Source: Sulfurovum sp. AR
GTDB taxonomy: Bacteria > Campylobacterota > Campylobacteria > Campylobacterales > Sulfurovaceae
NCBI RefSeq assembly: GCF_000296775.1
Contig: NZ_AJLE01000006.1
Coordinates: forward strand, 248,001 to 312,000
DNA: 64,000 nt
Direction of reading: 5' to 3'
Position 1 is the first letter of the stretch. Each line of letters begins with the position of its first letter. Both the position numbers and the translations under genes were made by a program. The notes under the pieces were generated by a model that saw only the letters and a program-made list of their open reading frames with translations, was not told the DNA's origin and made no database searches. Shown piece after piece: positions 64 to 28,389 of this stretch.

Positions 64-78
64 TACATAACGTTAAAT

Positions 79-145
79 TAAAAGCTAAACTCATTGTGAA
101 GTGAGGACAGAAAGCCATGGGTCTTATAAAGATTGCCAGGCTGCA
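79..145 (+). promoter_or_regulatory. Cyclic-di-GMP class I (GEMM-I) riboswitch, copy 1
   Basis: The RNA carries the GEMM-I signature. A GCTAAA segment (83-88) leads into a 6-bp hairpin capped by a GUGA tetraloop (CUCAUU/AGUGAG). Then come GACAGAAAGCC, a second arm containing GGGTCT, and the closing GCCAGG-CUGC. Aligned by eye to the Vibrio Vc2 aptamer, the ligand-contact positions G20, A47 and C92 are retained. G20 is the base associated with c-di-GMP rather than cGAMP preference. A weak 7-bp hairpin follows at 151-173 before the PAS gene at 226. It presumably controls the four-gene signalling operon; whether ligand turns expression on or off is not visible. Confidence 0.88.
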
Positions 146-150
146 AACAG

Positions 151-173
151 TAAACTTTATGATTGTAAGTTTA
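151..173 (+). other. Hairpin downstream of riboswitch 1, possible expression platform
   Basis: TAAACTT (151-157) is an exact inverted repeat of AAGTTTA (167-173) and lies just after the aptamer. No T-tract follows, so it is not a standard intrinsic terminator. A G6 run (209-214) within the Shine-Dalgarno region lies about 35 nt further on. A hairpin is found at the same relative place after riboswitch 2. Confidence 0.4.
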
Positions 174-225
174 TTGGAACTACACTTCTTACACTACACA
201 CTACAAAAGGGGGGAGAATAATACA

Positions 226-639
226 ATGAATAGACCTGATCCAATTGATGAAGAGTATATCTTTGAAAAAGGCTTGATCGTAAGTTCTACAGATCTTAAA
301 GGCATCATTACATACGCGAATAGAAAATTCTGTGAAATAGCAGGATATACCAAAGATGAACTCGTAGGCAAAAATCACAATATCGTCAGACATCCAGATA
401 TGCCAAAAGCAGCATTCAAAGAACTTTGGGACACGATACAGGGCGGAAAAGAGTGGACCGGTATCGTAAAGAACCTAAGAAAAGATGGCAGATATTATTG
501 GGTTTATTCACATATTTCACCTATCATCGTTGATGGAGAGATCACTGGTTATACTGCAGCCAGAAGACCGGCATCTGAAACAGAAGTAACAGAGACAATT
601 CCTATATACAGGGATTTATTAGAAAAAGAAAGTAATTAA
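226..639 (+). CDS. Single PAS-domain protein, aerotaxis-receptor type
   Basis: This 137-residue protein is almost entirely one PAS domain. Residues 18-110 carry the Aer-like pattern: VSSTDLKGIITYANRKF, then AGYTKDELVGKNHNIVRHPDMP, then KNLRKDGRYYWV. In Aer and CetB relatives this domain binds FAD and reports redox or oxygen state. There is no methyl-accepting, kinase or output domain, so it probably signals through a partner, most likely the histidine kinase two genes downstream. The start has a purine-rich ribosome site (GGGGGGAG, 209-216). It is the first gene after a c-di-GMP riboswitch, and the Hpt gene follows 18 bases later. FAD binding is inferred from the family. Confidence 0.85.
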   Translation: MNRPDPIDEEYIFEKGLIVSSTDLKGIITYANRKFCEIAGYTKDELVGKNHNIVRHPDMPKAAFKELWDTIQGGKEWTGIVKNLRKDGRYYWVYSHISPIIVDGEITGYTAARRPASETEVTETIPIYRDLLEKESN

Positions 640-657
640 AGAGAGGTTGTCAACAAA

Positions 658-2055
658 ATGTACTATATACTAAATGAAACAAATCAAATTATCGCTGCAG
701 ATAAGAGTCTATTGGAATTATGCGGTTTATCGCATATAGATGAATTATCATTAAAAATTGCATTAGGCGATACAAGATTTGATTTATCCGAAACAGATAT
801 CAAGATCACAACAGGTCAAGATGATACAATGTTTCCGGTCTCTAAAACTTCCCTTTCAAGTATGCTTGGTCGTATCACATTGGTTGAAATCCAAACAGAA
901 GAGGAAAAAGCTGCTGAAGATGATCTATCGGTATTAACGCTTGATGATACTATAGAAAATATCGCACCTCTCGAAATAGAGGAAAGCAGTGAAGAAAAAG
1001 AAGTGGCTATCGATGACAACGAACTCTTTGATCTTGTCATGGAAGAGGAAACAGAAAGTATCACTCCTCTTGGTAGTCAAGATACAAGTAAAGAGGCGGA
1101 GCTTGCCATAGAGGATAACGAACTCTTTGACCTTGTTATGGAAGAGGAGACAGAGCGCAGTGTTGAAACGGTAGAAGCACCACTCGATATTATGACCGAA
1201 GATACAGAGATCCTTGACTTGGGCTTATCCGATAAAGAAGAGGAAGTAGCTAGTGAGAAAACTGTGTCAGAAGAGAGTGCTGAAATTCTTGTAGATATCG
1301 ATAAAGTGTGTCAACAGATCGGTATTTCTCATGAAGACTACGATACATTCCTCAATGAATATATCGATACGGCACTGGGACTTGAGCAGGATCTACAGAG
1401 TGAAGAGAGTACAAAACGTTCCAATGCTGTTGCAACACTTTCCCATCTTGGTGAGGTATTACAACTACCGGTTATCGGAGACATCATAGCCAAAATAGAT
1501 ACTGTACCTGCAGATGAGCTAAAAGCAACTGTAGAATCTTTTTACGCAACTCTCTCAAGAATCACTACAACACCAACTTCTCAAGCAGAACCTGAAATGA
1601 CACTCCTTGATACCCAAGAAGAAGATAAGATGGATCTTTTCGATGTAGAAGAAAAAGAAGTTGAACTAGAAGCGCCTATCAATGAAAAGGGATTTGGTAC
1701 GATTTCACTTGAAGGTATCAAACCTATTCACTTTGACTTTCAACTTGAAGAAGCTGCTAATGATCTCTCTTTACCGGTTGACCTTATTGAAGAATTTGTA
1801 CATGATTTTATCGAGCAATGTCATATTGAGACCAAAAATATGCTCAAAGCCTATGAAGAGGGCGATCTGGATGCCATTCAGAAAATAGGACATCTGCTTA
1901 AAGGTGCAGCAAGTAACCTTCGTATCAATCCACTCTCTGATACGCTCTATAAGATACAGTTTTGTGAAGACAGCAGTACTTTAGAAGCTTTGATCAAAGA
2001 CTATTGGGGACACTTTTTGTCTTTCGAAATTCAAATAAATGCGCTAGCAAAATAA
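658..2055 (+). CDS. Hpt phosphotransfer protein with acidic repeat linker
   Basis: This 465-residue protein ends in a histidine phosphotransfer domain (about residues 355-460). The motif HLLKGAASNL places the likely phospho-histidine at position 402. A second Hpt-like helical region lies at about 200-290 with a histidine at 253 (LSHLGEVLQL), but it lacks the KG that normally follows and is probably degenerate. The N-terminal 80 residues are faintly PAS-like. Between lies a highly acidic linker with two copies of a DNELFDLVMEEETE unit. It probably shuttles phosphate between the hybrid kinase downstream and the single-domain receiver at the end of the operon; this role is inferred from the gene set. 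Confidence 0.8.
   Translation: MYYILNETNQIIAADKSLLELCGLSHIDELSLKIALGDTRFDLSETDIKITTGQDDTMFPVSKTSLSSMLGRITLVEIQTEEEKAAEDDLSVLTLDDTIENIAPLEIEESSEEKEVAIDDNELFDLVMEEETESITPLGSQDTSKEAELAIEDNELFDLVMEEETERSVETVEAPLDIMTEDTEILDLGLSDKEEEVASEKTVSEESAEILVDIDKVCQQIGISHEDYDTFLNEYIDTALGLEQDLQSEESTKRSNAVATLSHLGEVLQLPVIGDIIAKIDTVPADELKATVESFYATLSRITTTPTSQAEPEMTLLDTQEEDKMDLFDVEEKEVELEAPINEKGFGTISLEGIKPIHFDFQLEEAANDLSLPVDLIEEFVHDFIEQCHIETKNMLKAYEEGDLDAIQKIGHLLKGAASNLRINPLSDTLYKIQFCEDSSTLEALIKDYWGHFLSFEIQINALAK
1009..1155 (+). repeat. Imperfect tandem acidic repeat inside the Hpt gene
   Basis: Two copies of a 16-residue unit, (I)(D/E)DNELFDLVMEEETE, are encoded at 1009-1056 and 1108-1155, giving a 99-base period. 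The spacer segments are also related (ESITPLGSQDTSKEAELA versus the preceding IEESSEEKEVA). The units look like docking or linker motifs. The even phase fits an in-frame duplication. Confidence 0.75.
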
Positions 2056-2068
2056 AAGGAAATACACT

Positions 2069-5000
2069 ATGACTATACGTAATAGACTCAAACTTATTGG
2101 TCTGGTACCAATTTCTCTACTCATTCTACTATCAAGTTATTTCTTTGTAACTTCATATGTAAACTATGAAAAGGCTAATGCACTGAAAACGACATTGATC
2201 AACAATGGTGCTTTGGACAAATCACTTATCGAAATCGGTAAAGAGAACGGATTAACAGCCTTATATCTTGGAAGCGATAAGAAAATGTATGCGGATGCAC
2301 TTATCAAACAACGTGAGAAACTAGATGAGTCTTTTGAAAACCTCAAATATGAAATCATCACAGACAAAAAGGTATACCTTCCATTCTTAGTTGAACTATT
2401 AGAAGGAGGGGCGGCAAAAGCATTAGACCCTTATACACTGCTAGTAGCCAATATAGATAAACTTCCCGAAGCCAGAAAAAAGATAGATGCTGAAAATGTA
2501 GATTTTAAAACGACGTTTTTTCAAACCTATAGAAACGGTCTATCTACACCAACGCTTGACAAGATCCTGATACTTAAGAAGTATGCACTTGATACAGATA
2601 TTTCAGGACTGATCGATACACTTACACAAATTTATACAGCTCAGGAGTACAGTGGACTTGAAAGAGGATTTATTGCATATTATATGGCAAAAAGATCTTC
2701 TCTCTCATTTGAGGAAATTGCATTATGGGATGAATTCAAAACAAAAGCACATATTTTTGATCTCAAACAGGTAAACAATGATGCATTGCGTACACAACTG
2801 GAAAAAGTCCTCTATAACGATCATGCCAAAGAAGTGATGAATGACCTGGCTCTGACATCATCTGCGATCCAGACAGATATCGATAACGGTGACTATGCAG
2901 AAGAAGTTATGGACTGGTTTGCATTGCAGACACAGAAGATCGCACTGCTTTCAAAAGCAGAACTCGTGGTTTCAAATGCTCTATGGAAAAAAAGTAACCT
3001 CTATCTTGATAAACAACTTTTGCTTCTTGCTATCGCAGGCGCTATCTGGTTGCTGAGTTTTATTTTGGCCTACCTGGGGTACACAACAGCAAGAGATATT
3101 ACAAGAAACATTAAAGAGCTTGAAGACGTATTGAACAAAGCGGTTGAAGAGATGAAAGCCAGTGATCAATACCTTGCATCAGATTCACATGCGATTGAAA
3201 ATATCGACCTTGATACGCATGAAGGTACAAAAGAAGCCTATAAATTCCTTGAGGACCTTGTTGAAACAGCAAAAGATGATAAACTTATTGCCCTCCAGGC
3301 CAATGAAGCAAAATCACTTTTCCTCGCAAACATGTCACATGAGATTCGTACACCTCTGAACGGTATTGTTGGATTTACAGAGATCTTACGTAGTACGAAT
3401 CTTACTGAAGAACAAGAAGAGTTTCTTTCAATTATTGATAAAAGTTCTGAAAACCTTCTTAGTATTATCAATAACATTCTCGACCTTTCAAAAATTGAAA
3501 GTAACAAGGTCGAGATTGAAAGTATCGTATTTGATGCAGCTGAAGAGTTTGAGAGTGCAGTTGAGACCTATGCAGTTGCAGCAACAGAGAAAAATATTGA
3601 CATGAACTACTACATGGATCCAACGATTTCTGCAAAACTCAAAGGTGATCCGACGAAGATCAAAGAGATTGTGATTAACCTTCTTTCCAATGCCGTTAAG
3701 TTTACAAGTTACGGTGGAGAAGTCAATCTTGATATTGTCAAAGAGACAGATGAAAATGGTGTGAATAGAGTGAAGTTCAGTGTTAGAGATAACGGTATTG
3801 GTATGACCAAAGACCAACAATCTCGTATTTTTGATGCCTTCTCTCAGGCCGATGTATCGGTCACAAGAAAGTATGGTGGTACAGGTCTAGGTTTGACTAT
3901 TTCTAGTCAATTCGTTGAACTTATGGGTGGAAAACTTGAACTTGAAAGTGCTAAAGACTACGGTACAACATTCTTCTTCTCACTACCATTAGAAGAGGTT
4001 GCATCTACTGAGGTTAATTATGAAAATGCATTCAACGATCTTGTCCTAGGTAAATATGAGCAGGATGTTCCGACAAAACTAGACAAAAATCTAGAAAAAT
4101 GGTTTGAATACTTTGGACCAACTGTCAAACATTTTGAATCCATAGCTGAACTCAAAGAGCTTGATTACAATGATACCTGTAAGAACTACTGGATCGATAT
4201 TGACAAAGCAAGACAAAACATGCTTGATGCTATTGAAAATATGGATAAATCGAAACTCATTATTATTGCCAATGTTACAAGCCGTAATAAGGTTGAAGCA
4301 CTGGATATTGATCAAAGCCATGTTCTCTTTAAGCCGGTTACACTCAGTAAACTAAAAACTGTCTTGAACAATACTGCGACTATAGCGCCTCAGCGTATTG
4401 AAGAAGCAGCAGCAGTACAACAGACCAGATTTGATGCTAAAGTATTAGTGACAGAAGACAATATTATTAACCAGAAACTTATTAGACGTATACTTGAAGA
4501 GCATGGGATTACCGTGGATATCGCAAATAACGGTCTTGAATCCTTTGAAAAACGTAGAAGTGGTGATTATGACCTCCTCTTTATGGATATTCAAATGCCT
4601 GTGATGGATGGTATTGAAGCGACACATGAGATCCTTGACTATGAAGAGGATGAAGAGTTAGCACATATCCCGATCGTAGCTTTAACAGCCAATGCCCTTA
4701 AGGGTGACAGAGAGCGATTCTTGGCCGAGGGTATGGATGAGTATATCACTAAGCCTATTGAAACGACTGAACTACTTTATATACTTAACAAGTTCTTATC
4801 AGACAAAGCAATTGGCGAAACTGCAGAAGCTACCAAAACAGAAGAAACAGTGGTTGAAACATCTGAAGAGAGTATCACTCCGACAGCTGAGATCTCTGAT
4901 GAACCAGAACTCACGCTTGACGAGCCTGCAGTAGAGAATATTGAAACACCTAAAAAAGAAAAGATCCTGATTGCTAAAAAATTATTGCTGGCTCGTAGAG

Positions 5001-5278
5001 TTTTAGCAAAAGTTTTGGAAAATCTAGGACATGACTATGATACATTGGATGATATGGAGATGTTAGAGAACACATTGGCATCAGGCGACTATGATATACT
5101 CTTTACTGATACAGACCTAGTTACAGAAAGTATCAGCCACTCTAATGGAAATGTAGCTATAATTTCATCAAGCAATACAAATGCTCCTCAAGAAGTCAAT
5201 GTACAAAAGGGTGAAACCATCTCAAGTACTGCTTCTAAAGAAGAGATAGAAAACATAATCACAAAGTATAGAGGATAA
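2069..5278 (+). CDS. Hybrid histidine kinase, NIT-type sensor, three receiver-like domains
   Basis: The protein has 1069 residues. It begins with a membrane segment (about 10-32). A periplasmic helical region of about 270 residues follows, with the nitrate/nitrite-sensing (NIT) pattern, including ENGLTALYLGS and LERGFIAYYMAKRSSLS. A second membrane segment lies near 315-340. The HisKA box SHEIRTPLNG places the phospho-histidine at 424, and the HATPase has NLLSNAVKFT and GGTGLGLTIS. Residues about 660-770 resemble a receiver without phospho-acceptor residues. A true receiver follows with LFMDIQMPVMDG (Asp840). The last 100 residues look like another receiver lacking the N-terminal acidic pair. 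It sits between the Hpt and receiver genes, so a multistep phosphorelay is likely. The ligand is unknown. Confidence 0.87.
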   Translation: MTIRNRLKLIGLVPISLLILLSSYFFVTSYVNYEKANALKTTLINNGALDKSLIEIGKENGLTALYLGSDKKMYADALIKQREKLDESFENLKYEIITDKKVYLPFLVELLEGGAAKALDPYTLLVANIDKLPEARKKIDAENVDFKTTFFQTYRNGLSTPTLDKILILKKYALDTDISGLIDTLTQIYTAQEYSGLERGFIAYYMAKRSSLSFEEIALWDEFKTKAHIFDLKQVNNDALRTQLEKVLYNDHAKEVMNDLALTSSAIQTDIDNGDYAEEVMDWFALQTQKIALLSKAELVVSNALWKKSNLYLDKQLLLLAIAGAIWLLSFILAYLGYTTARDITRNIKELEDVLNKAVEEMKASDQYLASDSHAIENIDLDTHEGTKEAYKFLEDLVETAKDDKLIALQANEAKSLFLANMSHEIRTPLNGIVGFTEILRSTNLTEEQEEFLSIIDKSSENLLSIINNILDLSKIESNKVEIESIVFDAAEEFESAVETYAVAATEKNIDMNYYMDPTISAKLKGDPTKIKEIVINLLSNAVKFTSYGGEVNLDIVKETDENGVNRVKFSVRDNGIGMTKDQQSRIFDAFSQADVSVTRKYGGTGLGLTISSQFVELMGGKLELESAKDYGTTFFFSLPLEEVASTEVNYENAFNDLVLGKYEQDVPTKLDKNLEKWFEYFGPTVKHFESIAELKELDYNDTCKNYWIDIDKARQNMLDAIENMDKSKLIIIANVTSRNKVEALDIDQSHVLFKPVTLSKLKTVLNNTATIAPQRIEEAAAVQQTRFDAKVLVTEDNIINQKLIRRILEEHGITVDIANNGLESFEKRRSGDYDLLFMDIQMPVMDGIEATHEILDYEEDEELAHIPIVALTANALKGDRERFLAEGMDEYITKPIETTELLYILNKFLSDKAIGETAEATKTEETVVETSEESITPTAEISDEPELTLDEPAVENIETPKKEKILIAKKLLLARRVLAKVLENLGHDYDTLDDMEMLENTLASGDYDILFTDTDLVTESISHSNGNVAIISSSNTNAPQEVNVQKGETISSTASKEEIENIITKYRG

Positions 5279-5283
5279 GAAAC

Positions 5284-5652
5284 ATGGCATTAAAAGTACT
5301 TGTTGTTGATGATGACTTCATCAACAGAAAGCTCATACAGACTCTTTTAAAAAAGAATCCAAAAGTAACAGAGATCATAGAGGCAGAAAATGGGTCTGAC
5401 GCCTTAGATAAAATGAAGAAAGATCCTAGTATCAATATGATACTCTTGGATATTATGATGCCAGTTGTGGATGGGATAGAGTTTTTGAAGATCTTTAGAT
5501 CTGATATGAATAATGCACATGTACCTGTTATTGTACTCTCTACGGATGATACACGTAAAACAGAAGTCTATGATAATGGGGCAAACGACTTCTTGCGTAA
5601 ACCTGTTATGCAAGATAATCTCTATGAAAAAATAGACCAGTGGGCAAACTAA
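5284..5652 (+). CDS. Single-domain response regulator (CheY-like)
   Basis: This 122-residue protein is a receiver domain alone. The acidic pair is in VLVVDDDF (9-11), the phospho-acceptor Asp56 is in LLDIMMPVVDG, a Ser/Thr switch is in LSTDD and the conserved lysine is in FLRKP. There is no DNA-binding or enzymatic output. It starts five bases after the kinase stop and closes the riboswitch-headed operon, so it is the likely final phosphate acceptor from the Hpt protein. Its target could be a motor or another enzyme; nothing in the sequence says which. Confidence 0.9.
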   Translation: MALKVLVVDDDFINRKLIQTLLKKNPKVTEIIEAENGSDALDKMKKDPSINMILLDIMMPVVDGIEFLKIFRSDMNNAHVPVIVLSTDDTRKTEVYDNGANDFLRKPVMQDNLYEKIDQWAN

Positions 5653-8875: not shown

Positions 8876-9098
8876 ATCTTTCCCTAAATTAAAATCTAAT
8901 AATATATATAATAGCTCAAAGTATGTAAAAAGCGTATTAGCTAGTATAGATAATTCCAAAAAGATGGCTCTTATAGGGGTATCTCAAATTCACAAAGTAA
9001 AAAGGTAACGCTTGTACAACGAGAATATGATATAATTAATTATTATTTAATATCAATTTTATATTAACTATGATATTCTTTAATTTAGTATTACAGAG
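8876..9098. other. Divergent intergenic region between bamD and the pilin operon
   Basis: This AT-rich stretch has no open frame worth calling. It holds -10-like sequences for the rightward transcript: TATAAT at 9031-9036 and TAGTAT at 9086-9091, the latter placing a start at the first base of the riboswitch. It presumably also holds the bamD promoter. No clear -35 boxes were seen. Confidence 0.4.
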
Positions 9099-9167
9099 AA
9101 AAAGCCAAACTTACTGTGAAGTAAGGACGGAAAGCCATGGGTCTCTAGCAGATAGCCAGGTTACCAA
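9099..9167 (+). promoter_or_regulatory. Cyclic-di-GMP class I (GEMM-I) riboswitch, copy 2
   Basis: The aptamer core is clear. AAAGCCAAA leads into a 6-bp hairpin with a GUGA tetraloop (CUUACU/AGUAAG), then GACGGAAAGCC, a second arm (GGGTCT...AGATAGCC) and the closing AGGTTACC. Aligned by eye to the Vc2 aptamer, G20, A47 and C92 are all present, so c-di-GMP is the expected ligand. It lies 90 bases before the secreted-protein gene at 9257 and about 9 kb from a close relative at 79-145. GEMM-I elements elsewhere often precede pilin, adhesin and chemotaxis genes, which fits both positions here. Confidence 0.92.
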
Positions 9168-9169
9168 TC

Positions 9170-9187
9170 GTAAGCCATCATGCTTAT
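9170..9187 (+). other. Hairpin after riboswitch 2, possible expression platform
   Basis: GTAAGC (9170-9175) pairs with GCTTAT (9182-9187), one pair being G-U, around a 6-base loop. Its left arm, GTAA, could instead pair with TTAC at 9091-9094 to close the aptamer. The two pairings are mutually exclusive and could form the switch. No T-tract follows. Confidence 0.4.
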
Positions 9188-9256
9188 ATCATCATTTCTC
9201 AAATGTACATACACAAATTTAGCTTATATAATAGATGAGCATTAAAGGGTATTATC

Positions 9257-12200
9257 ATGAACAATTTGAGTAAAATTTTTAAATTATATCTATTGCCATC
9301 TCTTCTCTTTCTACTACTTCACACATCTCAACTCACTGCCGCATCTAATTCATGTCCTGGTAGTGTTATATCTGGCAGTGTTCTTAATGCAGCACTCATA
9401 GACGATACAAATGAAGATGATTATTATAGGTATACCCCTGGTGATTACGGACAAATAACGCTAAGCTTTAGTGCCACTGAAAAGATAAATATTTATGTAA
9501 GTAAGGATGCATGTGACGATGATGGGATTTTGAGTATCGGTAATGGTGAAACAAGTGGATATGTAACTGTTAATGTAACGGATACAGAAACTCTCTATAT
9601 TCATGCGGAATATTTCCACAATGATGCTGACTACAATATCACCTTAAACTTTGAACCTGCTCTTCCTGTAGATATCTGTTATGATTATGCATACAAACAA
9701 AATGACGTATACTTGACCGAAGAGAATGATGGCTCTTTTGACCCCCGTATCCAAGGTACAGGGCTCACGAATGACAATATCACTGTCGAGCTCTATATAC
9801 AAAATATAGATCCTGCAGATACTGCCATGGAAAATTTAACCGTTGATATCTTTGATATAAATGTATCTCAAGCTACTTATGTTCCCAATTCTACCTGGGT
9901 CACGCAGCCTGGAGAGCTTACACCCACGAATGTAACTGATGTCAACAGTAGTGCAAGCTACAACAATGACATAGCTATCAATGATGTCATCAGTAGAGAC
10001 TTTTTCTATCTGAATTATGATTTATCACCTCTGGGAAATGAAATTGATATACCTCTCAATGTCAGACTGAATTATACGGGTAACAATATTGTCATTGATA
10101 GTACAATACCTTTATGTAACAATAATTCCTTAAATTATACACCTGCTTATGGTATCTTCAATGTAGAAGACAGTATACTCACGTATCTAGACAAATATAA
10201 TCTTCCAACACAAACAGCCAATCGTGTAGGTGATCTTGTAGTAGCTGCCTATGAAGCGGATGATGTTTATCAGAGAAAAAATGTCTCTACTGTTGTTGCT
10301 GTAGAGTTAATCGATGCGGCAAAACATGGCGGAATTGCTACTTCCTGTGCGCAATATGATAGTGCACTAACACCTCGTATATGGCTTACCTTTGATAACA
10401 ACGTCTCACGTACAGATTTTGATTATACTACCATTACCGATGCCATTGCCAATGGTGCTCTCTCTGACCAGATTCCAATCAATGGTCCATTCATCTCTAC
10501 TGCACCCGAATTTTACAGTATTGCAAGAGAAAATGCTGCCTTCAGAATTACATATAATGGTGCGGGAAGTGGCGATTTACTAAATACTGAAGCAGTCACT
10601 TGTCCACCTCAAGCCGGTGCAGGGACATGTTATAATGTTAAGAATTTTACGGAAGCCATTAAGTATAATGGTGGGAATTGTGCGCAAGATGTTGATGGTA
10701 ATTCTAAAAATATAGATAAAATTCCACAATTTTGTAACAATGCCGGTACTGCTGCAGCTTCTGCAATGACACCAGGGGAATTGGCAACCTGCATGGAATG
10801 TATTTATGGGTTTGATGTCAACTTCCTCTGTTCACGTGACAACTTTGCCATACGGCCAGAGAGCTACCGTATGACTCTGAATGACCAAAATCAGAATGAT
10901 CCCACACAACAAAGCCTCATTGCTATCAATGATAATTTGGCAGGAAATCAAAACAGAAATCATACAAATAATACGCCATATCATGTGGCAGCTGGATACA
11001 ACTATGCACTTCAAATTCGTGCGGCCAATCACGTAGATGATAACGCAACACCTGGTTATAATGTGGGATTTTTTATGGATGGAAATGACAGTCAACGTTC
11101 TTTTAGATTGGCATGGCCTGCATCAGTCAATCCATCATCAACCTACTGTAATGACACAGCAGATCACAATAAAACAGTAACATTGCTCAACGGAGGAGCA
11201 GATCTCAATCTCAGCAGTGATCAAGTTGGTAAATACAATTTAACTATGTTTGACAGGCTATGGACTAGAGTTGACTGGGATCCGACACTCATGACACATC
11301 ATACAACAGGACAAGGGGCTGGGTACTTTCTAACGGGGAGAGATTGTGTTTGGGGTACATCTGCCGTACCTAGTCAGAATACACTAACAGGATTTAGTGG
11401 AGAGAATCTTACTAATGTAAGTGGGTGTGATATCTCCTCTGATAACCACACTAATATTAACAATAATCTAGAATACAAAGATATTGCATTGCGTGTGCAT
11501 CCTTACAAATTCGATCTTAACGGTAGCAATCCGATCAATCCCAATGTAGGTCCCTACACAAGGACCAATGGGCAAACCTTTGTCTATATCGATACACCGC
11601 CTACGATGGATGAAAATAACACGGATATGAGCTACAATATGAATGGTACATTCTTTGCCGCAGGGTATAATGACATTGGTAGCCTCAGTAATTTCGTTAC
11701 GGGATGTTATGCGGATGATCTCAATATGGCTCTTAGTTTTACCTATAACAGTCCTGAACCTTCCTCAAGCAAAACACCATTCCTCTCATATAGTTTAAAG
11801 GACCATAACACGACCGATAAAACAGATATTTATAGACCTGTTCCTGTTTCAGGTTATCTTTTAGATGATCACTTTGAAGTAGGAGATCATAATAGTAGCA
11901 CTGTACCATTGATTATTGACCAAAATGGAACTTTCTTTGTAAAACCTATGTTAGGTGCCATCACTATGGACTTGGGATACAACTTTAAACGTGATTATAA
12001 TAACACACTAAACCCCAGATATATAGAATTCCATGACTTTAACATCACCTATAAAACAAATCCAACGAATATCAAAGCCGATCTCCAAAGTGATCACCAA
12101 ATCTTTGGGGATATCATACTTGACCATGATGTTACATTTGTCTATGGTAGAGCTAAACCTTCTCAATATTTTTATGATGATGTCACTGCAAACTTTGTAG

Positions 12201-12667
12201 ACACCCCAATTTCAATTGTCATTTATTGTGATCAAGACCCTGTTACATGTTCTGCTGTATACAATATAACAAATACCACATTTGGACAAACAGATGAATA
12301 TAACTGGTATCTTTCACTTGGACATGTTACAAATGAGAATGATGGGAATATTACCTTAAATGCAAGTACTGGGGGGAGTGTTTCACCTACTGACCCTGCT
12401 GCCGTAGCTATTAACGATAGTGGAGGTGTGAATGATCCTGATGTTAGAGTTTCAGCAACGGCCACTATACGCCCTCTAAATGTTGATATTACCTTTGGAG
12501 CAGATACAAACAGATGGCTTGTTTATAATAAAGATAAAAATGAGACACCAATTCCTTTTTACCGCGTCCGTTTCATAGGTCAAAGCGGCTGGGCAGGCTA
12601 TGGTGATACCGGACATGTGGTTGATACTGATGCTAGTACAAAGAAAAATAGACGATTGGGGTGGTAA
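9257..12667 (+). CDS. Large secreted protein of the pilin operon, adhesin or MshQ-like
   Basis: The protein has 1136 residues and an N-terminal signal peptide (about 1-29, ending LTAA). Residues about 33-135 resemble a pre-peptidase C-terminal (PPC) domain (DDYYRYTPGDYGQITLSFSA). Next comes a DUF11-like beta-sandwich (about 165-295), then a long Asn- and Asp-rich region with many paired cysteines, ending in RRLGW. The pattern LPTQTANRVGDLVVAAYEAD resembles repeats of MSHA-associated MshQ-type proteins. It is the first gene after the c-di-GMP riboswitch, and four prepilin genes follow directly. A pilus-tip or surface adhesin role is inferred from position and architecture. No enzymatic motif was seen. 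Confidence 0.7.
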   Translation: MNNLSKIFKLYLLPSLLFLLLHTSQLTAASNSCPGSVISGSVLNAALIDDTNEDDYYRYTPGDYGQITLSFSATEKINIYVSKDACDDDGILSIGNGETSGYVTVNVTDTETLYIHAEYFHNDADYNITLNFEPALPVDICYDYAYKQNDVYLTEENDGSFDPRIQGTGLTNDNITVELYIQNIDPADTAMENLTVDIFDINVSQATYVPNSTWVTQPGELTPTNVTDVNSSASYNNDIAINDVISRDFFYLNYDLSPLGNEIDIPLNVRLNYTGNNIVIDSTIPLCNNNSLNYTPAYGIFNVEDSILTYLDKYNLPTQTANRVGDLVVAAYEADDVYQRKNVSTVVAVELIDAAKHGGIATSCAQYDSALTPRIWLTFDNNVSRTDFDYTTITDAIANGALSDQIPINGPFISTAPEFYSIARENAAFRITYNGAGSGDLLNTEAVTCPPQAGAGTCYNVKNFTEAIKYNGGNCAQDVDGNSKNIDKIPQFCNNAGTAAASAMTPGELATCMECIYGFDVNFLCSRDNFAIRPESYRMTLNDQNQNDPTQQSLIAINDNLAGNQNRNHTNNTPYHVAAGYNYALQIRAANHVDDNATPGYNVGFFMDGNDSQRSFRLAWPASVNPSSTYCNDTADHNKTVTLLNGGADLNLSSDQVGKYNLTMFDRLWTRVDWDPTLMTHHTTGQGAGYFLTGRDCVWGTSAVPSQNTLTGFSGENLTNVSGCDISSDNHTNINNNLEYKDIALRVHPYKFDLNGSNPINPNVGPYTRTNGQTFVYIDTPPTMDENNTDMSYNMNGTFFAAGYNDIGSLSNFVTGCYADDLNMALSFTYNSPEPSSSKTPFLSYSLKDHNTTDKTDIYRPVPVSGYLLDDHFEVGDHNSSTVPLIIDQNGTFFVKPMLGAITMDLGYNFKRDYNNTLNPRYIEFHDFNITYKTNPTNIKADLQSDHQIFGDIILDHDVTFVYGRAKPSQYFYDDVTANFVDTPISIVIYCDQDPVTCSAVYNITNTTFGQTDEYNWYLSLGHVTNENDGNITLNASTGGSVSPTDPAAVAINDSGGVNDPDVRVSATATIRPLNVDITFGADTNRWLVYNKDKNETPIPFYRVRFIGQSGWAGYGDTGHVVDTDASTKKNRRLGW

Positions 12668-12670
12668 ACA

Positions 12671-13408
12671 ATGCTAAACACTACACTTAAACGACCTGCT
12701 ATTGCTATGTTAGAGTTGATCTTTGCCATCGTGGTCATGGGTATCGTACTGATGTCTGCTCCGATGCTCATAAGTACTTCTACTAAAAGTGGCTTTGTTG
12801 CTATCCAACAAGAGGCCATCCATGAAGCTGCTTCACATCTGAATATGATCATGGGATATCACTGGGATGAAAATGATGCGGATGAGCGTTATGTCGACCC
12901 TATCTTACAGGTAACCTCAGGGAATGGTGATTTAGATGAAGATGGAAATACAGGTCGTCGTTTAGGAACACCTGAAGAGAGTTACCGTGCCTTTATACGT
13001 TCTGATGGAACAGATGACCTTGCTGCATCAGCCCTTGCCACATTTGGTGCTGCTGATGGAACGGAGACAGAAAAAGATGATATCGATGATTTTTCAGGCA
13101 ATACAGATCTCACAGAGATCGACACTGCAGTAGCAGATAATGTAGAAAAAACCACTATTAATATCAATGCAGTGGTTGCCTATATTCCTGACACCCCAGG
13201 AAGCGGAAGCTATGCAGACCCTGGAGCTGATAATAAAATCACATTCACGCCTAACTTTACAGCGAATTCGGGAACCAGTACCAATATAAAAAGAATCACT
13301 GTGACGCTCACAAGCACCAGTGGAGTTACAGAATTGGATAAACAAATCATATTACATGCTTTTTCATGTAATATAGGTGGATATACATTAGCAGAGAGAG
13401 GATTTTAA
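12671..13408 (+). CDS. Prepilin-like protein with unusual +1 residue
   Basis: The 245-residue protein has a type IV prepilin N-terminus: a short basic leader (MLNTTLKRPA), the processing site A/IAMLE, and a hydrophobic helix (LIFAIVVMGIVLMSA). Glu at +5 is present, but the mature protein would begin with Ile instead of the usual Phe. The rest is an acidic globular domain rich in Asp, Thr and Gly, possibly a minor pseudopilin. It starts three bases after the secreted-protein stop, and its TAA overlaps the next ATG (TAATG), so these genes are translationally coupled. No assembly ATPase or secretin is encoded in this window. Confidence 0.8.
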   Translation: MLNTTLKRPAIAMLELIFAIVVMGIVLMSAPMLISTSTKSGFVAIQQEAIHEAASHLNMIMGYHWDENDADERYVDPILQVTSGNGDLDEDGNTGRRLGTPEESYRAFIRSDGTDDLAASALATFGAADGTETEKDDIDDFSGNTDLTEIDTAVADNVEKTTININAVVAYIPDTPGSGSYADPGADNKITFTPNFTANSGTSTNIKRITVTLTSTSGVTELDKQIILHAFSCNIGGYTLAERGF

Positions 13409-14247
13409 TGATGCATAACCGAATGAATAGATCAGCTTTTTCTCTTCTTGAGCTTATTTTTGTCATCGTGATACTTGGTATCGTCTCTTCTTTGGGTGCT
13501 GAGATCATTGCAAATGTATATCAAAGTTATGTATTGCAAAGAGCACAGCATCGTGCTTCTCTTAAAACAGAACTTGTCGCGACTGAAGTTGCCAATCGTT
13601 TGCGCTATGCGATCCCTGGTACAGTTATCCGTAGAGTAGGTAAAACAGGTACCCCAGAGGAGCTTAGTGAGACCATGGCCAGTTCCCCTGATGCCTATAC
13701 TGTGCTCCAATGGGTTGCCTATGATGGCGACAGTTTTGAAGCCATTTCCAGTGCTACAGACCGTAAACCTGGGTGGAGTGGTTTTTGTGATATCAATACA
13801 AGTACAACAAACAGTATCAGTACACCAGGTTCAAATCTAGGTTTGGCCAGTACTATTATCGGCAATCTATCGAAAAGTGCTACGCCTGTGAAAAGTATTA
13901 CAAATGCATACCTTTACTTCCCTTATGATACTACAGCCTATGATATAACTACAGGAACAGGAGAGACCATTACACTTGGTACCAATGCCCCAAGAATATT
14001 TGAGCACTATAAACTCTCTTGGAGCTCTTATGCTCTGGTTGTTGAAAATGGAGACCTCTACCTTTATTACAATTTTTCTCCTACACCGGCAGCTGCTATA
14101 GGGAACATCAAGTCTCTGCTACTTAAGAACGTGACGAATTTCAAGTTCCAGGGTGCAGGACGTACCACCCGATTTAAAGTATGTAAACAAGAGAACATTG
14201 GTGAAGATTTCAATATCACATCATGTAAAGAAAAGGCGGTCTTCTAA
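13408..14247 (+). CDS. Type IV prepilin / pseudopilin (PilW or GspJ-like)
   Basis: The 279-residue protein has a canonical class III signal: leader MMHNRMNRSA, cleavage before FSLLE, and helix LIFVIVILGIVSSLGAEII. The downstream part (VYQSYVLQRAQHRASLKTEL) is an extended helix and then a beta-rich domain of about 200 residues. Size and position suggest a large minor pseudopilin of the PilW/GspJ kind. It overlaps both neighbours as TAATG. The function in pilus or secretion pseudopilus assembly is from the family; the exact class is not certain. Confidence 0.83.
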   Translation: MMHNRMNRSAFSLLELIFVIVILGIVSSLGAEIIANVYQSYVLQRAQHRASLKTELVATEVANRLRYAIPGTVIRRVGKTGTPEELSETMASSPDAYTVLQWVAYDGDSFEAISSATDRKPGWSGFCDINTSTTNSISTPGSNLGLASTIIGNLSKSATPVKSITNAYLYFPYDTTAYDITTGTGETITLGTNAPRIFEHYKLSWSSYALVVENGDLYLYYNFSPTPAAAIGNIKSLLLKNVTNFKFQGAGRTTRFKVCKQENIGEDFNITSCKEKAVF

Positions 14248-14714
14248 TGATATTAAAATCCAAACGTAATGCTTTTTCCCTATTGACCGCACTATTTGTC
14301 ATTGTTCTTATGGCGACTGTAGCGATGCTTGTGATGAACATGACAGGGAAAATGGTAAAAGAGACAACAACACAGTACCAAAGAGAACAAGCGGCTCTGT
14401 TGGCCAAAAGTTATACAGAATATGCCATTATGGCAGTCACAGCCAATGATAGAACGACTAACTGTCTGAGTGATATCGACGGTACTGTCGGATCTAATCC
14501 AGCCAATGGAAATGGCTATCGTATTCGTGCACGTATTGCTTATATCGGCCATAATGCAGAAGTCGGTACATGTTCTACAGTTTTTAGCAATAGTGTCAAT
14601 GAAGCTAATTCACCACTCAATATCATTGTAGATGTGTATGTAGAGTATAAAGAGGCAGATAATACAAGTGCCCCATGGGTTACCTATCATAAAAGAACAT
14701 TACAGAAGATTTAA
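14247..14714 (+). CDS. Minor pseudopilin lacking Glu5 (PilX or GspK-like)
   Basis: The 155-residue protein has leader MILKSKRNA and then FSLLTALFVIVLMATVAMLV. The processing site is normal, but position +5 is Thr where major pilins and most pseudopilins have Glu. Loss of Glu5 is characteristic of GspK/PilX-type tip subunits, so it may cap the fibre. The remainder is a short helical and beta domain. It overlaps the preceding stop by one base (TAATG). Confidence 0.78.
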   Translation: MILKSKRNAFSLLTALFVIVLMATVAMLVMNMTGKMVKETTTQYQREQAALLAKSYTEYAIMAVTANDRTTNCLSDIDGTVGSNPANGNGYRIRARIAYIGHNAEVGTCSTVFSNSVNEANSPLNIIVDVYVEYKEADNTSAPWVTYHKRTLQKI

Positions 14715-14755
14715 AAATGATACATGTGAATATTTTTACTACAAAAGGAATCTCT

Positions 14756-15397
14756 ATGAAAAGATCAGCTTTTACGATGATCGAACTGGTTTTGGTCATT
14801 GTCGTTTTAGGTATATTGGCCGCACTTGCCCTGCCAAGATTTGAGCGTGACATCAAACAAGAAGCAGCAGATAGTGTACTCTCAGACATTCGATACACAC
14901 AACATTTGGCATTGATGAGTTCTAAACATAAATTCGATGAACCAAAATGGCAAAGAGCTTTTTGGAAAATATCTTTTGAACCATGTAGTGATAATGGTTT
15001 GTTTACCAATATAGGAACAGATGTAGGCTATGATGGGGACATATCTGAAACAGAGTCAGCGATGGATCCAGTGAATGGCAAGATAATGTATTGGGACAAC
15101 TCTACAAACTGTGCTGATGGAGGTGACAGCAATACCAGTGACCGTATCTTTCTTACAAAAAAGTTCGGTATCAAAGCTATCGCTGGTGCAAATGGATGTG
15201 CTGGGGTTCAAGATATAGGTTTTGACCATTTGGGTAGACCTCATGTCAGCTTCTCAGGTTCTACTGCACCTACCTATGGAAGCTATATGAATACAGCATG
15301 TACATTTACCTTTACAATGTCAGATGATGATACCTTCTCCATCCAAATAAATCCTGAAACAGGCTATGCTTTCATCGTAGGCCAATTAGATTCTTAA
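14756..15397 (+). CDS. Type IV prepilin / pseudopilin (GspH or FimT-like)
   Basis: The 213-residue protein has the leader MKRSA, then FTMIELVLVIVVLGILAALAL with Glu at +5. The downstream motif DIRYTQHLALMSSKHKFD resembles GspH/FimT minor pilins. The start at 14756 was preferred over an upstream ATG at 14717 because AAAAGGAA lies seven bases ahead and it gives a normal five-residue leader. It is the last gene of the riboswitch-headed operon. The four prepilin-like proteins together look like a minor-pilin set that primes a fibre made elsewhere in the genome. Confidence 0.85.
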   Translation: MKRSAFTMIELVLVIVVLGILAALALPRFERDIKQEAADSVLSDIRYTQHLALMSSKHKFDEPKWQRAFWKISFEPCSDNGLFTNIGTDVGYDGDISETESAMDPVNGKIMYWDNSTNCADGGDSNTSDRIFLTKKFGIKAIAGANGCAGVQDIGFDHLGRPHVSFSGSTAPTYGSYMNTACTFTFTMSDDDTFSIQINPETGYAFIVGQLDS

Positions 15398-15489
15398 TCT
15401 CTTTTCTATTTACCTTTCATTAAGTATCTTAAGTTAAAATTAAGTATGGATATAGCGATATATCTATACTTTAACATTAAGGATATATT

Positions 15490-27943: not shown

Positions 27944-28168
27944 CTATAGATCACTATCCTCATCCGCTTCGATATCCCCTTCATCATCAAGATCAAGGTC
28001 ATCATCTGCTTCTAGTTCTGCATCTGTCGGCATTTCATAGGCACTCTTATCTAGCGGATCCACAAAGTTTTGATCATCGATCGTATTGTACTGTACAATT
28101 AAATATACGATACCTATAGACAAAAGTCCAACAAGCAATATTGCAAAGCTTTCTAACAAATTTTTCAT
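27944..28168 (-). CDS. Small membrane protein with acidic tail
   Basis: The 74-residue protein has one N-terminal membrane helix (FAILLVGLLSIGIVYLIVQY, about 8-27) and a long tail that is almost entirely Asp and Glu near the C-terminus (EADDDLDLDDEGDIEADEDS). The function is unknown. The start follows GAGGATAAAAG. It is preceded by an unusually structured 5' region (28183-28254). The nearest upstream gene on this strand is murI, about 220 bases away, so it probably has its own promoter. Confidence 0.7.
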   Translation of the reverse strand: MKNLLESFAILLVGLLSIGIVYLIVQYNTIDDQNFVDPLDKSAYEMPTDAELEADDDLDLDDEGDIEADEDSDL

Positions 28169-28182
28169 CTTTTATCCTCAAA

Positions 28183-28254
28183 TTGGTGGTCTGGCAAACT
28201 CAGTTATGACATTTCTGAGTCCCATAACTTGCTTCACAACAAATTAGGCTTTTT
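28183..28254 (-). promoter_or_regulatory. Structured leader resembling part of a GEMM-I aptamer
   Basis: Read on the minus strand, this RNA starts AAAAAGCC and forms a 6-bp hairpin with a GUGA tetraloop (28243-28228). This arm matches riboswitch 2 at 22 of 27 aligned positions, with pairing-preserving changes. It ends GCCAG-ACC-ACCAAUU, close to GCCAG-GUU-ACCAAUC of riboswitch 2. The middle differs. The GAAAGCC ligand core is missing and is replaced by a segment that can form either a 7-bp hairpin (GACUCAG/CUGAGUU) or AGUUAUG/CAUAACU. The small membrane protein gene starts 15 bases later. Confidence 0.35.
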
Positions 28255-28389
28255 ACATACAGTAAAACCGTATGGATGTATTCTAGCATAGATAAGTTTA
28301 TATTAGGTGTTTTTTATTAAAAATATATATGAAAATAACTTTATCTAATGTATAATTAAGTAGGAGCTTATCAGGGGAAATAGAGGGTC

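Follow-up and report, generated by a model that had tools for sequence, protein, structure and literature searches.

Of the known systems compared here, Vc2 lies upstream of tfoY in Vibrio cholerae and works as a translational OFF switch of the GEMM-I class, governed by how stable P1 is (PMC9262584). The GEMM-I RNA of pilM in Geobacter metallireducens senses c-GAMP and controls transcription by means of a terminator (PMC9262584). In Clostridioides difficile, genes for the cell surface and for virulence are reported to be under c-di-GMP riboswitches (PMC6200980). Literature searches returned no riboswitch papers for the genus considered here.

The window (the whole stretch of DNA that was analysed, 64,000 nucleotides) was searched with cmscan. 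Two matches exceeded the curated threshold, both in the c-di-GMP-I clan: a complete aptamer at 9095-9169 (+) with E 3.5e-13 and another at 75-149 (+) with E 1.9e-11. The preliminary description had called the former a very good GEMM-I aptamer and proposed a search with RF01051. Run genome-wide with a cut-off of 35 bits, this search gave 66.3 bits for 9095-9169 and 60.3 bits for 75-149, and the claim held. The whole genome contained 21 matches above the cut-off, with 9095-9169 second in score. None was found in 14 control genomes. Those relatives that turned up in a named collection were Sulfurimonas MAGs, which suggests this genus for the genome; 37 of 60 relatives had matches, and all but two of these 37 belonged to the same genus. 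P2 and P3, with a GUGA (GNRA-type) loop in P2, were visible in the alignments of the 9095-9169 aptamer, and P1 was identified from covariation. The aptamer class is already known; the switch design and the linkage to a cassette are the interesting parts. The features of the leader are listed below.

9069-9078, + strand: probable -10 region TATGATATTC, TATGnTAT type; almost all of the 21 leaders aligned have a similar element at this spacing 5' of the aptamer.
9088-9095, + strand: 5' strand of the outer helix P0, GTATTACA, partner 9204-9212 (pairing and covariation in 16 leaders, moderate support).
9091-9097, + strand: 5' strand of P1 (TTAC, bulged A, GA), partner 9168-9173 (covariation over 16 leaders).
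9095-9169, + strand: c-di-GMP-I (GEMM-I) aptamer, with G20 at 9104, C92 at 9164 and a GUGA tetraloop in P2 (cmscan, RF01051 score, alignment of 21 copies).
9168-9173, + strand: 3' strand of P1, TCGTAA, of which 9170-9173 also lie within hairpin B (covariation).
9170-9187, + strand: hairpin B, GTAAGC 9170-9175 with GCTTAT 9182-9187, mutually exclusive with P1 (covariation over 16 leaders).
9177-9191, + strand: putative anti-Shine-Dalgarno (anti-SD) segment, TCATG 9178-9182 and ATATC 9186-9190, in the loop and 3' strand of hairpin B, complementary to the start codon and Shine-Dalgarno (SD) sequence (duplex energies).
9195-9200, + strand: TTTCTC, a possible partner of GAGAAA 9096-9101 in the minimum-energy fold without ligand (fold; weak statistics across leaders).
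9204-9212, + strand: 3' strand of P0, TGTACATAC (strongly conserved among related leaders; P0 covariation).
9222-9240, + strand: hairpin D, GCTTAT/ATGAGC, just 5' of the SD, with TATAAT in its stem-loop (almost all leaders have a hairpin here).
9244-9249, + strand: SD sequence AAAGGG (sequence; AAAGG(T) conserved among related leaders).

Ligand class was assessed by alignment of the genome's 21 aptamer copies, with Vc2 numbering carried over. G20, A47, A48 and C92 were present in 21/21 copies, and G20, A47 and C92 are the canonical residues contacting c-di-GMP. The genome encodes 14 GGDEF and 10 EAL domains, so c-di-GMP is the likely ligand of the window aptamer. That the aptamer is instead a c-di-GMP-I-GGC variant or a cGAMP-type GEMM-I with another ligand is extremely improbable: the best Rfam clan label is indeed the GGC variant, RF03167 (65.3 bits vs a cut-off of 59), and the pilus gene pilM of Geobacter does carry a c-GAMP-sensing GEMM-I switch (PMC9262584), but RF01051 outscores RF03167 on this aptamer (66.3 vs 65.3 bits). 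The 21-46 pair was C-G and followed by A47 in the genome's copies (A47 in 21/21), against a consensus of G-C and then G47 in the GGC model; the distinguishing residue of the variant is thus missing, and the label was rejected. The cGAMP type was also rejected, position 20 being G in 21/21 copies and not the A that marks cGAMP-sensing GEMM-I.

The preliminary description had further suggested, from the two copies in the window, a shared regulon for attachment within 15 kb. This was weakened by the 21 aptamers found genome-wide, and by a conspecific genome (G100) which has 18 aptamers and keeps the equivalent of the 75-149 copy (C1:309941), with none at its adhesin. The 75-149 aptamer heads an operon at 226-5652 encoding PAS, Hpt, hybrid histidine kinase and response regulator proteins and was conserved at the same place in close species as well. 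Names read from ORF starts place PAS-domain proteins, a chemoreceptor-like protein, a WecG-like glycosyltransferase, lipoproteins, an L,D-transpeptidase-like protein and others after the remaining aptamers. Because the other aptamers precede such varied genes, this is a broad c-di-GMP regulon and not a two-copy attachment module; it exposes a large riboswitch regulon, with up to 21 aptamers per genome. Tandem aptamer pairs were seen in the same genome at G000:C6:400693-400920, C8:28447-28745 and C9:83429-83664, the two copies of the C6 pair being near-identical in sequence. A decayed GEMM-I remnant was noted at 28167-28274 (-) of the window, in which parts of P2 and P3 are kept and the GGACGGAAAG segment is gone; an SD and ATG lie close downstream, and it scored 32.5 bits with a custom covariance model, under the Rfam threshold.

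The aptamer at 9095-9169 lies 5' of the following genes, as had been proposed when it was described as heading an adhesin and minor-pilin operon.

9257-12667, + strand: secreted protein of 1136 aa with several domains and rich in beta structure, probably a pilus-tip adhesin (signal-peptide-like start, structure model, relatives).
12671-13408, + strand: prepilin-like protein 1 (prepilin-like N-terminus by eye; syntenic in relatives).
13408-14247, + strand: prepilin-like protein 2 (PF07963).
14247-14714, + strand: prepilin-like protein 3 (weak GspK/ComGE-like match, GspK-type pseudopilin).
14717-15397, + strand: prepilin-like protein 4 (PF07963; weak GspG/GspH).

The earlier assignment of a secreted protein followed by four prepilin genes stood best for the secreted protein, with its signal-peptide-like start, and for the two of the four downstream ORFs that carry the prepilin N-methylation motif PF07963; it was weaker for the third, with only its GspK match, and for the first, recognised by eye. 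The 1136-aa protein matched no Pfam or NCBIfam family, DUF6701 included. The G100 allele matched DUF6701 (34.0 bits vs a cut-off of 27), a domain known from MshQ. The adhesin model was beta-rich (pLDDT 76.6). Residues 133-282 formed an Ig-like/adhesin-like beta-sandwich with TTHA1873 as best match (Z 11.1, 2.7 A over 130 residues) and Z around 9 to pilus and adhesin domains, a common fold. Foldseek with the whole protein gave only loose full-length matches, to large multi-domain proteins, and no homologue of solved structure was found by sequence. At its N-terminus, one relative had P-domain, Ig and cadherin-like modules. By analogy to the MshQ and PilY1 systems, the best reading is a pilus-tip adhesin with minor pilins.

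Relatives of the 1136-aa protein were found in 58 of 78 genomes of the genus. A custom covariance model was made from the genome's 21 copies and run on the 58 fetched loci and the window. It gave 29 matches, 26 of them in front of an adhesin ORF and the other three in the window itself. The aptamer heads 24 of the 48 adhesin loci having at least 350 nt upstream. About 20 of the aptamer-headed loci share the leader far past the aptamer; five (L061, L064, L065, L071 and L074) have a different one. The preliminary description had missed this long conserved leader, which reaches as far as the start codon, and likewise the exchangeability of the operon as a whole and the genome's 19 other aptamers. 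Its order is common to the approximately 20 related operons: a TATGnTAT-type promoter-like element, aptamer, hairpin B, a GATGTACATAC element, hairpin D and AAAGGTGTTATTATG. The conserved leader is about 170 nt long. The hairpin at the position of hairpin D varies in sequence between leaders; for most of them its z lies at about -2 to -3.8. Among the individual leaders, L054 (1127-1390) and L107 (7209-7467) have a 171-nt insertion with inverted-repeat ends in the P3 loop, across which the aptamer was still recognised. L054 also has a group II intron domain match (RF02005, 88.9 bits) at 138-388 (-), genome G012, just 5' of the adhesin leader. The adhesin-leader aptamer of L077 (1238-1343, genome G015) no longer has an equivalent of C92 and is possibly non-functional.

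A transcription start downstream of 9167 had been named as a result that would overturn the riboswitch reading, and it was not supported. Such a start would mean that the adhesin is transcribed mainly from a TATAAT-like site at 9204-9232 and that the aptamer binds ligand with small effect, which we consider very unlikely. The site, TGTACA-17-TATAAT, matches at 10/12 positions; however, its TATAAT falls within the stem-loop of the covarying hairpin D, it is absent from related leaders, and the scan gave 5 such sites in 400 bases vs 2.9 expected. A promoter between aptamer and gene was accordingly rejected. The TATGnTAT-type element 5' of the aptamer is conserved.

Two helices compete for the same bases. 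In P1, TTAC 9091-9094 pairs with GTAA 9170-9173 and is lengthened by GA 9096-9097 with TC 9168-9169. Across 16 leaders of related operons, P1 was paired in 84% of cells (14-53% for slid-partner controls), hairpin B in 86% and P0 in 82%; the covariation score was reached by 3/500, 0/500 and 23/500 shuffles, respectively, counts which are not probabilities since the leaders are related. P1 and hairpin B showed compensatory changes over the same columns. As both covary in related leaders, they exceed chance, and covarying alternatives over shared columns are, read from the alignment, the signature of a switch. The hairpin proposed at 9170-9187 thus exists, and the GTAA arm it was thought to share with a closing pairing to TTAC is common to both helices (9170-9173). 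The swapped-partner test was not significant for P0 (P 0.43) and weak for GAGAAA/TTTCTC (P 0.034, with faulty segments in two loci, and 0.058), so these helices carry no weight in the switch argument. At two other loci of the genome another platform design is likely: sequences 3' of the aptamer are complementary to its 3' half (anti-aptamer), as TGCAGATC/GATCTGCA at L015 (G000:C6:167296-167371) and AGATAGTC/GGCTATCT at L003 (C6:318415-318489).

The anti-SD segment was examined by duplex energies. In the window, ATATC 9186-9190 pairs with GGTAT 9248-9252 and TCATG 9178-9182 with CATGA 9256-9260. The mean duplex energy of anti-SD with SD/start was -7.79 kcal/mol for cognate partners and -6.90 kcal/mol for swapped partners, at a P of 0.011 that is optimistic because the segment was picked after fold inspection and several failed candidate segments. 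When the segment was shuffled the mean was -5.98 kcal/mol, and 0/300 shuffles were as low as cognate. Two control segments had no cognate SD complementarity in the same test. Sequence changes in L107 and L058 improve the anti-SD match. With P1 enforced, SD accessibility fell in 12 of 18 leaders and rose in 3 (mean 0.56 to 0.41). A first model of the bound state, in which the aptamer core was constrained without P1, gave no average change. In the leader of the window itself, enforcing P1 has an equilibrium cost of approximately 10 kcal/mol, and folding during transcription must therefore play a part.

Judged by its anatomy, the leader would repress rather than induce the operon in response to c-di-GMP, and we infer the sign of the switch to be OFF, for which Vc2 is a precedent. 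Without ligand, hairpin B would form and hold the anti-SD strand, leaving the SD open. With c-di-GMP, P1 would form and take the 5' arm of hairpin B; the hairpin would open, its freed loop and 3' strand would pair with the SD and start codon, and translation would drop. We put at about one in two the probability that this is a canonical c-di-GMP-I riboswitch acting as a translational OFF switch on a swappable tip-adhesin/minor-pilin operon. If so, high c-di-GMP would shut off the tip adhesin, as expected for a pilus used before, not after, settling.

That sign runs against the usual expectation for adhesins, since c-di-GMP more often raises adhesion. A switch of the opposite sign, which agrees with this usual role, is possible but less likely. 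Hairpin B, or the long P0 with the GAGAAA/TTTCTC helix, would then be the repressive state (attenuation or a closed leader), and P1 formed by c-di-GMP would dissolve it and raise adhesin expression. A U-rich stretch follows hairpin B in some relatives, but it does not directly adjoin the stem, and in the window it is interrupted; terminator control of the window leader was rejected, with 0 intrinsic terminator-like sites in 8900-9300. Likewise, the aptamer 5' strand pairs with the SD/start region in L094 and L054 (-19.1 and -12.8 kcal/mol, respectively), which ligand would undo, but this pairing is not general (cognate vs swapped P 0.13); sequestration of the SD by this strand was discarded as strong only in those two leaders. 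Pairing of aptamer GCC with SD GGU in the consensus fold was also discarded, because the columns it depends on hardly vary and can prove nothing.

The OFF switch would form part of a larger exchangeable unit.

8943-15395, no strand: exchangeable cassette of leader, adhesin and prepilins (blastn against a conspecific genome).

By blastn against G100, the one conspecific genome compared, DNA identity was 97.1% on the left, as far as 8942, and 98.4% on the right, starting at 15396; between these points only two stretches matched, at about 71% identity. The flanking proteins were near-identical (bamD 98.7%, hpf 100%) and those within were divergent (adhesin 31.7%, prepilins 38-45%). In close species the breaks fall at almost identical positions (8940-8948 and 15356-15401), and different alleles lie between them: that of L061 has an aptamer and a different leader, and those of L059 and L062 are without aptamer. 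Gene order, with names read from ORFs, was lon, bamD, adhesin, prepilins, hpf, recG in most loci long enough; L054 had no bamD or hpf within the fetched stretch. Both the promoter-like element and the riboswitch lie inside the exchanged block, and the control element would travel along with the adhesin genes. On balance, it seems slightly more likely than not that second-messenger control of adhesion is here an allelic, exchangeable trait: a conserved riboswitch leader with an anti-SD hairpin would be carried by a tip-adhesin/minor-pilin cassette whose chromosomal site is fixed, and the pilus adhesin would be under c-di-GMP in some members of the species and not in others, perhaps even with opposite sign. 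This provides a sequence-resolved, testable case of a regulatory RNA swapped together with the surface structure under its control.

Compared with the known systems, the locus recalls the adhesins and type IV pili of C. difficile, where surface genes are under c-di-GMP riboswitches, and differs in that the latter has a Gram-positive host and other gene families. We know of no report of cassette exchange in the riboswitch-controlled adhesin systems of C. difficile. With MshQ-like and PilY1-like tip proteins it shares a large secreted beta-rich protein beside several prepilins, and the conspecific allele matches DUF6701; the window protein, in contrast, is without a family match, and its operon occupies a fixed site, between bamD and hpf, for which many alleles exist. 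Like pilM, it has a GEMM-I RNA on type IV pilus genes and a P1 3' strand common to an alternative structure, whereas its aptamer has G20 and its leader is without a terminator. With Vc2 it shares a GEMM-I aptamer with c-di-GMP residues and, as we infer for the window, OFF logic via P1; it differs in organism group and target, and in that a separate hairpin, which contains the putative anti-SD, uses the 3' strand of P1 as well.
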